A stretch of 28,934 nt of DNA from a virus: IMG/VR virus record IMGVR_UViG_3300025000_000341, positions 1-28,934 of that record. One strand, written 5' to 3'. Within the stretch, counting starts at the first letter, position 1; each line of letters opens with the position of its first letter. Shown piece after piece: positions 6,012 through 10,615 of this stretch. The position numbers and the translations under genes are program-made. The notes below the pieces were generated by a model. The model was not told where the DNA came from. It saw only the letters and a program-made list of their open reading frames with translations, and searched no databases.

Positions 6012-6209
6012 GGTGGTCTCCTTCTTCTTTTGAGGTTTCAGTTCGTTGACGGTGCCGATCCAGTTGCACATGCACTCGACGACGTTGAGGTCCGGCGGAG
6101 CCGGGTAGTTGACACTGGTGAGCCGGTTCGGAGCCCTGCCGCACTTCGGGCAGCCTTGGTGCAGGATCTTATACTCCGCCATGCTCATCATACCTACTGG
6201 TTTGGTCAT
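5619..6209 (-). CDS. Zinc-ribbon protein fused to, or containing, a conserved phage replication-cluster protein
   Basis: A 196-residue open frame. Residues 16-50 hold a zinc-ribbon pattern (CPKCG ... ECMCN). After a lysine-rich joint (PQKKKETT), residues 67-196 form a separate soluble domain with a coiled-coil stretch (DLIAAKTKALNAELADLKAL) and the block TPHGTSYIETGDSVTVADWE, typical of an uncharacterised phage family near SSB genes. The ATG at 6209 follows GGGAG with a 6-nt spacer and lies about 15 nt after the predicted start of transcription from the 6231-6259 promoter. A second strong ribosome site lies inside the frame before codon 67, so both a long and a short product may be made. Function unknown. 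Confidence 0.65.
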   Translation of the reverse strand: MTKPVGMMSMAEYKILHQGCPKCGRAPNRLTSVNYPAPPDLNVVECMCNWIGTVNELKPQKKKETTMTQTITVDMVIEKYVATRDLIAAKTKALNAELADLKALQEKREAWLMSEMNRVGASSMKTPHGTSYIETGDSVTVADWETFFGWVQANAEFEFLTHAVSKTAVKQRLEDGQAPPPGVNYTTFKGIKVRRS

Positions 6210-6217
6210 TGCTTTCT

Positions 6218-6287
6218 CCCTTTCAACTCAACCTTAGCTCTTTGTAAACGGGTTGTCAACAATTATTTGTGAAGGGGTTTACTTTTT
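6218..6287. repeat. 70-bp perfect direct repeat, copy A (carries a promoter)
   Basis: These 70 bases are identical to 8060-8129 in the same orientation. They contain a full promoter and two GTTTAC-type motifs 33 bp apart. The right part of the repeat also encodes the last codons and stop of the cytosine methyltransferase. The two copies bracket the methyltransferase and its upstream gene. Confidence 0.95.
6231..6259 (-). promoter_or_regulatory. Sigma70-type promoter with operator motif in its spacer (copy A)
   Basis: On the minus strand TTGACA (6259-6254), a 17-bp spacer and TAAGGT (6236-6231). The spacer holds CGTTTACAAA (hexamer at 6244-6249) and a second GTTTAC lies 33 bp away, upstream of the -35 (6277-6282). 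Transcription would start near 6224 and give a short leader to the gene at 6209, so it should drive the zinc-ribbon and SSB-like genes and perhaps the primase-helicase. Confidence 0.72.
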
Positions 6288-7482
6288 CTACGAAGGCTAT
6301 CCGCTCTCCGATCCACCTCATGCACGGCACGGCCATCGAGTTGCCAAGCGCCTTGTACCTGGGGCCATCGGGGGACTCGGACTTGCCTCTCCAAGGGATG
6401 TTGGTGTAGTCGTCTGGAAATCCCTGTAATCTCTCACATTCTTTGGCAGTAAGTCGCCGTACTTGCATACCTCGGACTACGCCGTTGTGTCTACGGCTAC
6501 CGTTATTTGCGTCGAGTGTAGCAAATGCATCCACTATTCTGCAGCCGCTTTGCGAAGACTGGAAACCTACGACGTTCTCCTGCACCACAGCAAACCCATT
6601 ATCTACCCACTGGTTACATCCCCATTTCCGGTTATGGCTTGCGTCGAGAGTAGGAAAAACAATAGGAGCCTCATGGTTGCAGGTCAGCGACGGCGAGCCG
6701 TCGCTGCGGATTTCCGCGTTGCCTTGGCCGTGGGCCATGCAGAGAAGGTTCTCATGAGAATCCTGCTCTCTTGCTCGTAGTGTGCCAAGTCCGTCCTTCC
6801 ACCAACCCGCTCCTGTTGTGTGGACAGGAATCAACTCAAGTCCTCTTCCTGTTCCGTCTTCGCTTGAGTCGTAACGGCGAGTAAGGCTTCGTGCAACTGC
6901 CGGGGCAGTTTCTTCCCTCTTTTCTCTGCTCGGCGGAGGATTCCTCGACAGGCTGTGGCGCTCAAAAAGAACCGCTGCGGCACTGCGCCAGTCTCCAAGA
7001 TATCCGACAACGAAGACACGACGGCGTCGCTGGGGAACTCCAAAGTACTGAGCGTTGAGGACCCGGTAGGCCCACCCATACCCGAGTTCAGCCAACGCCC
7101 CGAGGAAGGAACCAAAATCCCTTCCTCCTCCGGATGAGAGGACACCGGGGACGTTTTCCCAGAGTATCCAGCGAGGGCGAAACCTCTCTGCAAGTCCGAG
7201 ATAGACCAGGCAAAGGTTGCCACGCGGGTCATCCAGTCCTTTTCTAAGCCCGGCGACGGAGAAGGACTGGCAGGGGGTGCCTCCGGCAAGCAGATCGATC
7301 TGGTCAATGTTCCACTCCTTGTATTGTGTCATATCCCCGAGGTTGGGAACGGTTGGATAGTGGTGGGCCAGGACTGTGGATGGAAACTTCTCGATCTCCG
7401 AGAAGGCTACCGGCTCCCAGCCCAGTGGGTGCCACGCGACCGTAGCCGCTTCAATGCCTGAGCATACTGACAGGTATTTCAA
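6256..7482 (-). CDS. DNA (cytosine-5-)-methyltransferase
   Basis: A 408-residue C5 cytosine methyltransferase that transfers methyl from S-adenosylmethionine to cytosine in DNA. Motifs are in order: SAM-binding VCSGIEAATVAW (~6-17), catalytic GTPCQSFS with Cys71, ENV near 110, QRRRRVF near 150, a variable target-recognition region (~180-340), and C-terminal RRLTAKECERLQGFP and YKALGNSMAVP. All core residues are present, so it should be active. The start is TTG at 7482 (TTGA overlap with the upstream stop), backed by AAGGAG with a 5-nt spacer. No cognate restriction enzyme is nearby, which fits self-protection against host restriction. It lies within a segment bracketed by 70-bp direct repeats, suggesting recent acquisition. 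The recognition sequence cannot be read from the protein. Confidence 0.93.
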   Translation of the reverse strand: MKYLSVCSGIEAATVAWHPLGWEPVAFSEIEKFPSTVLAHHYPTVPNLGDMTQYKEWNIDQIDLLAGGTPCQSFSVAGLRKGLDDPRGNLCLVYLGLAERFRPRWILWENVPGVLSSGGGRDFGSFLGALAELGYGWAYRVLNAQYFGVPQRRRRVFVVGYLGDWRSAAAVLFERHSLSRNPPPSREKREETAPAVARSLTRRYDSSEDGTGRGLELIPVHTTGAGWWKDGLGTLRAREQDSHENLLCMAHGQGNAEIRSDGSPSLTCNHEAPIVFPTLDASHNRKWGCNQWVDNGFAVVQENVVGFQSSQSGCRIVDAFATLDANNGSRRHNGVVRGMQVRRLTAKECERLQGFPDDYTNIPWRGKSESPDGPRYKALGNSMAVPCMRWIGERIAFVEKVNPFTNNC

Positions 7483-8018
7483 TTTCGCTCCTTTGATAAA
7501 CTTAACACTACGTCCTGCAGTTTTCCTTTTTCCTTTAGCACCGTGTAAATGCGTTTCTCTTCGGCGGTGGCGTAGAGATGGCAGATATCAATCTTCACTT
7601 CCTGTCGGCTGCCGTCGGTGCGGGCGTTGGCCAGCCGTTTAACAAAACTCTTGCCGTGGCTCAGGCCAGACTCATACCCGACCTCCCTGCCTACGCTCTC
7701 TGCACTCTGAACCGTCGAGATGATCTGCATCGCCACCCTGATAGCCCACATCGGCACCTCCCAAGGGATATTATTATTGTTGTCATCTGATGAGTAGCAG
7801 AAAGCGAAACCTCCACCCCTCGAAGAGACGGTGGGTGCATACACCGAATAAGAAGTGGCTCTATTATCATCACACGGCCTGCCAGCCGCCAGGAAAAGAA
7901 GATACACCGGCTTGAAACGTGGGTGTGGCGGTTCAGCTAGGCCACACTTCACATAGACATCGGCGGTTCCAGCGGGGATCCCGAGGATTTTCTCAATCTC
8001 TGTTCTTTCTTTGCCCAT
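7479..8018 (-). CDS. Unknown protein whose C-terminus copies the SNF2 helicase tail
   Basis: A 179-residue protein. The first ~128 residues match nothing I recognise; they include a glycine/serine and asparagine-rich stretch (SSDDNNNNIPWEVP). The last ~50, from ANARTDGSRQ onward, closely resemble the C-terminus of the SNF2 helicase at 8431-9993 (ANARTDGSKQ, then KIDI-H-YATAEEKR, KGK-QDVVL in both). That segment contains the helicase motif VI region, but the ATPase core is absent, so it is unlikely to act as a helicase. The ATG at 8018 has AGAGG upstream; the frame's GTG at 8024 is less likely. It is the first gene after the repeat-B promoter and is coupled to the methyltransferase. Possible readings are a recombination remnant fused to another gene, or a helicase-interfering module. 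Confidence 0.6.
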   Translation of the reverse strand: MGKERTEIEKILGIPAGTADVYVKCGLAEPPHPRFKPVYLLFLAAGRPCDDNRATSYSVYAPTVSSRGGGFAFCYSSDDNNNNIPWEVPMWAIRVAMQIISTVQSAESVGREVGYESGLSHGKSFVKRLANARTDGSRQEVKIDICHLYATAEEKRIYTVLKEKGKLQDVVLSLSKERN

Positions 8019-8059
8019 GATCACCTCTTGGGTTAATTGAGTGGGTACCTGTGTTTTCC

Positions 8060-8129
8060 CCCTTTCAACTCAACCTTAGCTCTTTGTAAACGGGTTGTCA
8101 ACAATTATTTGTGAAGGGGTTTACTTTTT
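8060..8129. repeat. 70-bp perfect direct repeat, copy B (carries a promoter)
   Basis: Identical to 6218-6287. Identity stops abruptly on both sides (first mismatches at 8059 and 8130), as expected for a recent duplication or an insertion target. It overlaps the last codons of the 108-residue gene at 8105-8431, but in a different reading frame from copy A's overlap with the methyltransferase. Confidence 0.95.
8073..8101 (-). promoter_or_regulatory. Sigma70-type promoter with operator motif in its spacer (copy B)
   Basis: TTGACA (8101-8096), 17-bp spacer, TAAGGT (8078-8073) on the minus strand, the same as copy A. GTTTAC-type motifs lie at 8086-8091 in the spacer and 8119-8124 upstream. It should drive the helicase-tail gene and the methyltransferase. 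Confidence 0.72.
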
Positions 8130-8431
8130 ATTTCGGCGTACCGACTGGATCGCTCCCGAGCGAAAATAAAGAACTGATTGCTGGCAATGTATACAGCATC
8201 ATCCACGAACCGTACATCTGCGAGGGTCCCCCGCAGTTTGTCGTGGTCCATCTCAGCATATCCAAACCTGATCCAACCTCCAGACCGAGTATCCTTCCAC
8301 ATTCTCTCGCTGTAATACGCCATAGCCTGCAGAGGAGGCCCGGCCTCAAAAGCTCGCACAGCGTCCCTGTAAAAAGGGAAAACAAGAATAATGCGCTCGC
8401 CGTTCAGCATGTCATCAATGTGTTTTTGCAT
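8105..8431 (-). CDS. Unknown phage protein following the helicase
   Basis: A 108-residue protein (MQKHIDDMLNGERIILVFPF...). The ATG at 8431 shares one base with the helicase TAA (TAATG) and has GGAGGAAGG upstream, so it is coupled to the helicase. It alternates beta-type and helical stretches (ERIILVFPFYRDAVRAFEAG; VRFVDDAVYIASNQFFIF) and has no cysteine cluster or membrane segment. Its last codons run into the 70-bp repeat. Coupling suggests a helicase partner, but I do not recognise a family. Confidence 0.62.
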   Translation of the reverse strand: MQKHIDDMLNGERIILVFPFYRDAVRAFEAGPPLQAMAYYSERMWKDTRSGGWIRFGYAEMDHDKLRGTLADVRFVDDAVYIASNQFFIFARERSSRYAEIKSKPLHK

Positions 8432-9993
8432 TACCTTCCTCCATTGTTCGCCATTTCCAAGACGACGTCTTGGAAACGACCTTTGCCGAGCAGGACATCA
8501 TAGGCGCGTTTCTCTTCAGCCGTTGCATAAATATGAGCGATGTCGATCTTTGCCGACTGCTTCGACCCGTCCGTCCTGGCGTTAGCCTGCTGGACCTTGG
8601 CCGCTTTCAGGTATGGTGCGTACCAGATAGACAACGAGGCGGCGGTGAGGTCGAGGCCGTGGGCCATGGTGTCCGGGTTGGCCATGATGATCCAAGGGTC
8701 GGGCAGAGAGCGGAACTCCCGGAAGATCTGCGCTCGCCGGCCGGCCGAGACACTGCCATCGACGACTGCCACGGACCAGCGCTTGCGAAGCTCAGTGGCG
8801 AGGGTGTTCAGGACCCCGGTGAACGGCACGAAGACCAGGACTTTCTCGTTGTTGGCCTCGATCAATTCCTCAAGGACTTTCAGACGCGGGCCGAAGTCGA
8901 ACTTGACCAGCTTGCCCTCTGCGTCATAGGCTACGCCACAGCTCACCTGGATCAATTTACTTAATAATACCGCAGCGTTAACTGCTGTAACTGTCTGGCC
9001 TCGCAGGTCGGTGGCGGCTTGGTTGCGCAGCTGTTTGTAGGCTCGCTCCTGCTCCGCCGATAACGGGGCCCGACGATCGATGAAGCACGGCTCCATGGTG
9101 GAGCAGACCGTGCGTTTGAAGCGGATGGCGGGTTTAAGGATCCTGGCAACGGACTCCTCCGCTCCTTTCTTCGGTACCCACTTGAACGGGCCAAACTGCA
9201 GCATGGTTTCCTGCTTGAAGCTGGTGAAGTGGCCGCGGTAGTTCTCCGGGGTGATCAATTTGCATTGCCCGAAGGCATCAGGTGGTTCATTTGGGGTCGG
9301 TGTGCCGGTCAGCCCCCAGGCGGAACGGACGATGCCCTGCTTGTTCAGCACCCGGTTCATCGGCGCCCACAAGACGCCCTTCTTGTTTTTCGCTGACCTC
9401 AGCTCTGCTAACTCATCAACGATCACCAGGTCAATGTCCGGCCGAGAGGCGAGGGCTTCCTCGATGAGTCCTACTCCGTGGTGGTTGACGACATAGAAGT
9501 CATGCGGCCGAGCGAGTAACTCAAGGCGTTTCTGCCGGCTGCCGTGCAGGACGGCGAAAGTGCGCAGCGGGAAGCTCTCGAAGATGTTCTGCTCCCAAAC
9601 ATCATAGATGGTGGAGAGCGGGGCGGCGATCAGGGTGCGACGGATCTTACCGGTGCGGCGGAGGTAATCGGCAGCCCACAGGGCGCTTAAGGTTTTTCCT
9701 GTACGCATTTCGGAGAGGCAGTAACAACGAGTGTGGAGGGTGAAGAACTCGCTCGAAGTAATTTGATACCACCTCGGAGTGTACCTCCCAGGCCAGTCGT
9801 ACTTCGTTCTTATCGGCGATGGAGCAGGAACGCCTAAGTTATTTAATATTCTGGCAGCATCCAAGGTGTACGGTACAGCACAAAAAGTTACTCCTGAAAT
9901 TGTCGTACTTTTTATGTCGGGAAAGATAGCACTCAGTTGTTCAGGGGTATTGGTCTGGACTACCAAATGATCCTTAATAATCCTTACCGGCAT
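8431..9993 (-). CDS. SNF2/DEAD-like superfamily 2 helicase
   Basis: A 520-residue helicase. Motif I is MRTGKT (~96-101), motif II VIVDELAE (~190-197), motif III LTGTPTPN (~228-235). The second RecA-like domain has VLVFVPF and ends with QQANARTDGSKQ in place of the usual motif VI arginine pair, a form common in phage SNF2-like helicases. It should be an ATP-driven DNA translocase in replication or recombination. The ATG at 9993 has AAGGA with a 7-nt spacer; a longer frame to 10086 would overlap the HNH gene. The first ~85 codons are visibly more A/T-rich than the rest, and a second, diverged copy of the N-terminus lies at 10517-10615. This points to a chimeric gene whose 5' end was replaced together with the HNH-AP2 insertion. 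Confidence 0.87.
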   Translation of the reverse strand: MPVRIIKDHLVVQTNTPEQLSAIFPDIKSTTISGVTFCAVPYTLDAARILNNLGVPAPSPIRTKYDWPGRYTPRWYQITSSEFFTLHTRCYCLSEMRTGKTLSALWAADYLRRTGKIRRTLIAAPLSTIYDVWEQNIFESFPLRTFAVLHGSRQKRLELLARPHDFYVVNHHGVGLIEEALASRPDIDLVIVDELAELRSAKNKKGVLWAPMNRVLNKQGIVRSAWGLTGTPTPNEPPDAFGQCKLITPENYRGHFTSFKQETMLQFGPFKWVPKKGAEESVARILKPAIRFKRTVCSTMEPCFIDRRAPLSAEQERAYKQLRNQAATDLRGQTVTAVNAAVLLSKLIQVSCGVAYDAEGKLVKFDFGPRLKVLEELIEANNEKVLVFVPFTGVLNTLATELRKRWSVAVVDGSVSAGRRAQIFREFRSLPDPWIIMANPDTMAHGLDLTAASLSIWYAPYLKAAKVQQANARTDGSKQSAKIDIAHIYATAEEKRAYDVLLGKGRFQDVVLEMANNGGR

Positions 9994-10520
9994 ACAATAT
10001 TCCTTGTGAGCATGTATTTCTTTGCTGTAGAGTCCCCCGACCAATCTGGATAGTCTAAACACTGCTCTGCAGCGTATCGCGCACATGCAGCATCTAATAA
10101 ATCAGAAAAGTGCCCTAAATATTTCATTTCTCCGGACACCATGACAAACGCTTGCCACCGGTTACGTTGCGCTCTCCAACGCACCCCTGTCACACTACTG
10201 GTGTTGTTTCGTGCCTTCGTGCAATTCCTAGATTGGCACTGGTAAGATGCCTCCCTAAGATTTTCATACGCATTGTTGTGTCTTACTCTATCTTCATGGT
10301 CTACAGTGAGTTCCGGAAAATATCCATCCACATACAACACAGCCAGTCTATGAGCTTTATATGACCTGCCGTCTAACTTTATGTCCACATACCCGTGTTT
10401 ATTGTGTCTACATCCAGCTACCTGCCCGACGGTGATCCCGCTTTTCCTGTGTATCCAGGTAAAGACTCCGGTGATTTTGTCGTAATGTAGAAGTTCCCTT
10501 AGTCGCTGTTGTGTAATCAT
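9984..10520 (-). CDS. HNH endonuclease with AP2-like DNA-binding domain
   Basis: A 178-residue homing-type nuclease. The HNH core is near residues 55-100 (AHRLAVLYVDG, VDHEDRVRHNNAYENLREAS), followed by an AP2-like DNA-binding segment (TSSVTGVRWRAQRNRWQAF ... LGHFSDLLDAACARYAAE, ~107-155). AAGGAG with an 8-nt spacer precedes the ATG. The 3' end overlaps the helicase start by 10 nt, and its 5' end overlaps a 32-codon remnant of a helicase N-terminus. It is A/T-richer than the genes around it. These features suggest a mobile HNH gene that entered the helicase gene, with the downstream helicase 5' end coming along. Cleavage specificity is unknown. Confidence 0.86.
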   Translation of the reverse strand: MITQQRLRELLHYDKITGVFTWIHRKSGITVGQVAGCRHNKHGYVDIKLDGRSYKAHRLAVLYVDGYFPELTVDHEDRVRHNNAYENLREASYQCQSRNCTKARNNTSSVTGVRWRAQRNRWQAFVMVSGEMKYLGHFSDLLDAACARYAAEQCLDYPDWSGDSTAKKYMLTRNIVCR

Positions 10521-10615
10521 ATTATTATCTCCTTGAGATCAGGGAACAGGGCGCGGAACTGGCCGGCGTTGTCAGACTCGATGACGTAGTGGTCGTTCAG
10601 GACGCGGATGGTCAT
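10517..10615 (-). pseudogene. Displaced N-terminal fragment of the SNF2 helicase
   Basis: A 32-codon frame, MTIRVLNDHYVIESDNAG then QFRALFPDLKE, that aligns end to end with the first 28 residues of the intact helicase (MPVRIIKDHLVVQTNTPE then QLSAIFPDIKS). Shared positions include R, DH, V, Q, A and FPD-K. It uses G/C-rich codons like the helicase body, unlike the A/T-rich N-terminus now attached to the helicase. It stops at a TGA overlapping the HNH start codon (ATGA), and its own ATG overlaps the small membrane gene's stop. The best reading is the original helicase start, cut off by HNH insertion. A short regulatory peptide is an alternative. Confidence 0.7.

Follow-up and report, generated by a model that had tools for sequence, protein, structure and literature searches.

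The question raised by this locus is how a phage helicase gene can be complete while a copy of its beginning lies on the far side of a neighbouring endonuclease gene. The window, meaning the whole stretch of 28,934 nucleotides analyzed here, is an IMG/VR virus record (IMGVR_UViG_3300025000_000341), a metagenomic contig from a bacterial virus. Read 5' to 3', its minus strand carries a small endonuclease-like gene (11141-10758, phrog_93), a 49-codon variable frame (10761-10612), a short frame resembling a helicase N-terminus, an HNH endonuclease gene and a SNF2-type helicase gene. There is an overlap at every junction of this row: the 49-codon frame ends within the ATGA of the short frame, the TGA of the short frame overlaps the ATG of the HNH gene, and the last 10 nt of the HNH gene include the helicase ATG. 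The comparisons presented below make it probable that this arrangement was produced by an intron-free homing element, one that exchanges an end of its target and so repairs the gene it breaks.

The HNH endonuclease gene (9984..10520, minus strand) encodes a 178-aa relative of I-HmuI (1u3e) that matches phrog_99 with E=2e-56. Its catalytic motif region, residues 54-93 (10242..10361, minus strand), corresponds to the Pfam HNH_3 stretch (E=3e-9; 36.7 bits against a cut-off of 24.8), and residues D74, H75, N83 and N87 are invariant across the family alignment. The C-terminal region, about residues 107-153 (10062..10202, minus strand), may bind DNA through an AP2-like fold. Pfam AP2 matches nothing in the window protein and gives a weak match in a single family member, L007 (E=0.017); the low-confidence model of the protein (pLDDT 59) folds this region into three strands plus a helix, and the top Foldseek matches of this low-confidence C-terminal model are AP2 domains (E=0.08, prob 0.96), which together weakly support the assignment. 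Five related records also carry HNH genes of this family, at a different place in each, and no close relative of the window HNH gene was found among viral contigs.

The relatives of the helicase provide the reference for the uninvaded state. Searching viral contigs with the helicase returned L001-L005, L014 and L016 as close relatives (best-segment identity 83-94%) and a second helicase group at ~70% identity; a DNA search of named phages with the region yielded zero matches, and no helicase relatives were found in the bacterial/archaeal genome collection. Immediately upstream of the helicase, almost every contig of L002-L016 carries a different gene, the stop of which overlaps or adjoins the helicase ATG, so that this position is, in these contigs, a hypervariable insertion slot.

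The short frame at 10517-10615 (minus strand), which reads MTIRVLNDHYVIESDNAGQFRALFPDLKEIII* and lies within a 40-aa ORF, aligns with the helicase N-terminus, as the initial annotation had recognized, and is recovered independently when the helicase is used as query against its own record (E=9e-4). Its first 29 codons (10529..10615; the open frame reaches 10517) constitute a displaced native helicase 5' end, hereafter the relic. These 87 nt are 92-98% identical to codons 1-29 of the intact helicases in seven HNH-free contigs (L002-L005, L013, L014, L016), with E about 1e-29 to 1e-36, and a match of this length, identity and significance is not due to chance. In the HNH-free relatives the equivalent of 10517-10615 runs directly and uninterrupted into the helicase body, and all further copies found begin intact helicases instead of forming a separately conserved peptide. 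Relative to L002 and L016 the relic presents synonymous differences only, which fits a recent displacement. The native start ends in the window exactly after codon 29, its last bases being the AAGGAG of native codons 28-29 (10529..10534, minus strand). Beyond AAGGAG, native alleles such as that of L016 go on GCGGTGGTGCAG, whereas the window goes on ATAATAATATG, the start of the HNH gene. This hexamer, which had gone unmentioned in the initial annotation, is separated from the HNH ATG by 8 nt, a Shine-Dalgarno distance, and is plausibly the ribosome site of the HNH gene. The exact left junction is carried by one metagenomic contig, with no second copy among the searched viral contigs.

The helicase gene itself (8431..9993, minus strand; 520 aa; SNF2-rel_dom, Helicase_C, phrog_62), whose start codon was picked from homologues and the HNH overlap, is a hybrid: one end is foreign and the rest native, and the endonuclease gene sits between this hybrid and the displaced native end. 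Judged by divergence from L014, GC3 and amino acid identity, the start now in use is foreign over codons 1-62 (9808..9993). Window and L014 differ at 90/186 nt in codons 1-62 and at 136/1275 in codons 93-517 (Fisher p=3e-31), and amino acid identity to the HNH-free type I natives is 43-48% up to about codon 60-62 and 96-98% in the native body (8431..9717), where nucleotide identity is about 88%. In successive 10-codon bins, identity to natives runs 50, 57, 50, 31, 59 and 59% to codon 60 and 79, 79, 65 and 86% thereafter, against 79-97% throughout for natives compared with each other. The divergence therefore peaks right beside the break (31% nucleotide identity, codons 31-40), and the later dip to 65% reflects a second, smaller non-native patch at codons 79-92 (9718..9759, 15/42 nt differing from L014), separated from the main stretch by native-like codons 63-78. 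The initial annotation had put the foreign N-terminus at about 85 codons; a foreign start is indeed present, with its main stretch ending at about codon 62 (window 9808), and the position 9730 that it gave falls at the edge of non-native sequence, in the end of the second patch, and not at the end of the main stretch.

Base composition follows the same boundaries. GC3 is 90% in the relic (84% in the native start of L014), 37% in codons 1-62, 46% in the HNH gene and 74% in body codons 93-520, which agrees with the compositional contrast originally noted; composition and divergence along the helicase are sharply non-uniform. The codon bias of codons 1-62 departs from that of the body (p=1e-8) and does not differ from that of the HNH gene (p=0.24). 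In an AlphaFold2 model, residues 1-53 form a strand-strand-helix-strand-strand-helix module (block pLDDT about 75-89) followed by a linker. Since the modelled module spans these residues, the right junction, near codon 60, would fall at its edge. The left junction cuts the native module within its third strand in the model, so the relic alone should not be able to form it.

A search for the donor of the foreign 5' end did not find it, the nearest sequence (65% amino acid identity) being that of L001, an independent contig with a comparable swap that the initial annotation had not mentioned. In L001 the helicase body is native from codon 61 and codons 1-60 are foreign and A/T-rich (GC3 42%), directly following an HNH gene of a different family (phrog_374), so that the right edge of the foreign start again lies near codon 60. 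No relic is present in L001, where the best match to the relic is the contig's own helicase start. In an N-terminal tree the foreign starts of L001 and the window are sisters with 94/93 support; with 63 columns this tree is too short to decide by itself and does not reject a grouping with natives (AU p=0.145).

The anatomy of the locus, the uninvaded allele in relatives, the hybrid gene, both junctions and the comparable cases in relatives are observed; a mechanism can be proposed from them. The mobile unit would comprise the HNH gene and the diverged helicase 5' end, from codon 1 to about codon 62. The HNH protein would cut a native helicase allele near codon 29/30, and the break would be repaired from an HNH-bearing genome, copying in both parts of the unit. 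The 87-nt native start and the DNA upstream of it would act as left homology arm and the body beyond about codon 62 as right arm, with right-side recombination ending in conserved sequence near codons 60-64. The recipient would gain the HNH gene and the foreign 5' end, make an intact hybrid helicase and lose the cut site; resistance of the hybrid allele is consistent with the divergence peak next to the break. The native start would be left upstream as a relic that could serve as left homology arm in the next round, and whose last codons and stop would supply the HNH gene with a ribosome site and translational coupling, a role that the HNH 3' end would play in turn for the helicase. AAGGAG may also have provided the microhomology for the first capture. 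On the arrangement of the reading frames, homing borne by a group I intron or intein was rejected: the relic stops at a TGA that overlaps the HNH start, the helicase is whole with its own start, and there is no continuous frame to splice.

Several related cases were identified at 5' ends. In L006 an HNH gene of the window's family begins MTAPL, matching the first five codons of a native PD-(D/E)XK gene, and is followed by that gene with codons 1 to about 33 diverged and A/T-rich (39-53% nucleotide identity over codons 1-12, versus 86-92% among the natives compared). In L009 and L011 an HNH gene, again of this family, lies directly 5' of a core gene, and the core gene has diverged over its first 24 codons (50-75% identity to same-group alleles, the natives being mutually 81-93% identical). 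Two HNH-bearing Felix O1-type phages differ from two HNH-free phages in the first 48 codons of the GIY-YIG gene downstream and in the last codons of the exonuclease upstream. These related 5' comparisons are short and few, and hence they support a rule and do not prove one. The proposition that every HNH gene of the window's family swaps the downstream 5' end was rejected, because in L098 (record G013) the HNH gene simply sits between terminase and portal and no swap accompanies it. L007, where an HNH gene follows a helicase 3' end, was set aside as ambiguous, the HNH-free alleles varying there too.

Some of the genes involved have peculiarities of their own. The PD-(D/E)XK gene of L006 (1033-2721), the relatives' version of which is 233-239 aa, is interrupted by a probable intein, an insertion that matches LAGLIDADG_3 (E=2e-7), and L011 carries a similar 562-aa gene at 183-1871. 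The Felix O1 gene with the differing first 48 codons (L083, 2998-3498) is annotated as NAD synthetase in that phage and as a GIY-YIG homing endonuclease in phage dune (L086). In L180, another relative, the helicase frame (1816 to about 3060) presents an apparent intein at the Walker A motif (HSAPR/CVDGSTEF...FITGN/TGKT), in which case the helicase gene would be targeted by more than one kind of homing element.

Mirror-image arrangements also exist at 3' ends. When 187 fetched sequences were scanned for a gene end repeated on the other side of an adjacent gene, two clear cases emerged besides the window, polA in L060/L061 and a helicase in L169, both at 3' ends. L060 and L061, from two metagenomes and identical in structure, encode DNA polymerase A followed by an HNH gene of the window's family, the C-terminus of which continues in frame into a polymerase tail, MPGIPLAADGGAHRRYGEAKN*. 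The polymerases of L044, L045, L064 and L070 end in tails that share 83-88% nucleotide identity with this displaced tail, and the sequence beyond it matches what follows polA in L070 (87%). Of 22 residues the tail in use retains 20, with only 65% nucleotide identity to its displaced counterpart. The helicase gene of L169 overlaps the next gene, which has a GIY-YIG-like start as read by eye, and beyond that gene comes a displaced helicase tail, IYATAEEKRIYTALKEKGRMQDIVLDLAKAK*; the L169 helicase represents another allele, and none of its relatives is close enough to tell which copy is native. No displaced end was found in 11 named-phage regions, where all matches were explained by repeated genes, mostly endonuclease paralogues. 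The joint arrival of foreign start and endonuclease gene by gene conversion, as the initial annotation had envisaged it, is the simplest reading and is backed by the L001 swap at the same place, by the diverged 5' ends of L006, L009 and L011, and by the tails of L060/L061 and L169.

The alternative that survives best, though we consider it unlikely, is ordinary phage mosaicism, whereby a foreign HNH gene and another phage's helicase 5' end were joined, one edge by AAGGAG microhomology and the other within conserved sequence, leaving the HNH gene as a non-cutting passenger. This phage group is strongly mosaic, as illustrated by L013, which combines a window-type native start with a 70%-identical body, and both the second non-native patch (codons 79-92) and the location of the right junction in conserved sequence would be accommodated by it. 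Against mosaicism, the swapped end has an endonuclease gene next to it in the window, L001, L006, L009, L011, L060/L061 and L169, and on the far side of that gene a displaced end is present in three of these cases (the window, L060/L061 and L169), whereas the mosaic joint of L013 has neither an endonuclease gene there nor a displaced start. Much less credible is a local duplication that generated tandem helicase 5' ends, with the HNH gene inserted between them and the used copy diverging afterwards. It would explain why the HNH gene is flanked by two related copies of the N-terminus. The used copy, however, matches natives at only half its bases and has a different codon bias, and its nearest relative is the foreign start of L001, while the abandoned copy, on which in-place divergence would fall, is 92-98% native; on divergence and codon bias, tandem duplication was rejected. 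An assembly chimera of two metagenome phages is equally improbable. The record is a metagenomic contig, and its exact left junction appears in no other searched viral contig. At both junctions, however, reading frames are preserved together with overlapping starts and stops and plausible ribosome sites, and the hybrid helicase gene stays in frame; L001 provides an independent hybrid, and L060 and L061 share one identical structure although they come from two metagenomes.

A further helicase fragment is present in the window. Positions 7507-7635 (minus strand), in ORF 7479-8024, encode about 43 codons of a helicase C-terminus with 91% nucleotide identity to L013, which belongs to the other helicase type, fused in frame to the ORF directly before a cytosine-C5 methylase gene (6256-7482). 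A promoter-like sequence of about 84 bp (TTGACA...), which follows the helicase in relatives, occurs in two copies (8049-8132 and 6203-6300) that bracket ORF 7479-8024 and the methylase stretch, giving it the appearance of an inserted cassette. This C-terminal copy was considered as the other edge of the HNH event and set aside, because it lies beyond the 84-bp repeat, belongs to a separate methylase stretch and matches the other helicase type.

Returning to gene-end replacement by homing, we lean slightly towards a broader proposal: that phages carry a recurrent class of intron-free elements, defined as an endonuclease gene plus a recoded 5' or 3' target end with the native end displaced, which would have originated separately from the yeast WHO elements, employ HNH or GIY-YIG enzymes, target replication genes (helicase, DNA polymerase A, RecB-like nuclease) and drive the formation of chimeric core-gene ends. 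If true, a phage counterpart acting at both gene ends with unrelated enzymes would make the design general, would explain how free-standing endonuclease genes enter important genes without splicing, and would be the origin of some of the short orphan frames and mosaic ends seen in phage core genes. In the open literature surveyed, displaced gene ends next to homing endonuclease genes are not reported for any phage, and novelty is provisional.

Among the closest known systems is the intronless homing of phage T4, in which adjacent gene sequence is co-converted with the free-standing endonuclease genes SegF, SegG and MobE (PMC2988022). The window shares with it the phage setting, the lack of an intron, the proposed co-conversion, and start and stop codons that overlap neighbours. 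The T4 genes are flanked by intact genes and their cut sites are at least hundreds of bases distant, and the description of them mentions no displaced gene ends, whereas the insertion point in the window lies within the target gene. With an insertion after codon 29 of the native helicase frame, the T4 type was rejected for the window; L098 does fit it. Split phage genes, such as Aeh1 nrdA/mobE and T4 gene 60/mobA, likewise have an endonuclease gene inserted in a phage replication or metabolism gene, and both halves are kept and reassemble as two polypeptides (PMC2988022); in the window, by contrast, a replacement end makes the gene whole and the native end is abandoned. Barth et al. (2023) reported phage homing endonuclease genes, including HNH-AP2 types, at genetic-exchange boundaries (PMC10448857), a placement that fits the window case.

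The arrangement itself is better matched outside phages. In the fungal mitochondrial mORF hybrids (Glomus atp6/atp9/cox2/nad3 and Allomyces atp6; Beaudet et al. 2013, PMC3630166), a foreign gene end also arrives with an endonuclease gene and the native end is displaced beyond it. Identity to a relative is 91-98% for the displaced native C-termini and 64-81% for the inserted ends; the corresponding values in the window, 92-98% and about 50%, come close to these. The mORF cases are mitochondrial, involve C-terminal ends and LAGLIDADG or GIY-YIG enzymes, and have transcripts shown, whereas the window is phage, N-terminal and HNH. In the WHO elements of Torulaspora and Lachancea yeasts, the FBA1 3' end is replaced at each integration and the old end is left as a fragment (Coughlan et al. 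2020, eLife, PMC7282813). WHO and the window are both intron- and intein-free, pair an endonuclease gene with a diverged target end, restore a hybrid target, leave the old end beyond the endonuclease gene and have two target ends with different histories. WHO elements occupy a yeast nuclear gene, FBA1, at its 3' end, form clusters and use a LAGLIDADG/HO-type enzyme with zinc fingers for which cleavage has been shown; the window has a single element at the 5' end of a phage helicase gene, with a predicted HNH enzyme bearing a putative AP2-like domain. Membership of WHO by descent was taken to mean an HO/VDE-like, LAGLIDADG intein-derived protein with zinc fingers and replacement of the target 3' end. 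With an HNH protein and a replaced 5' end, the window element works like WHO and is not a WHO member by descent.
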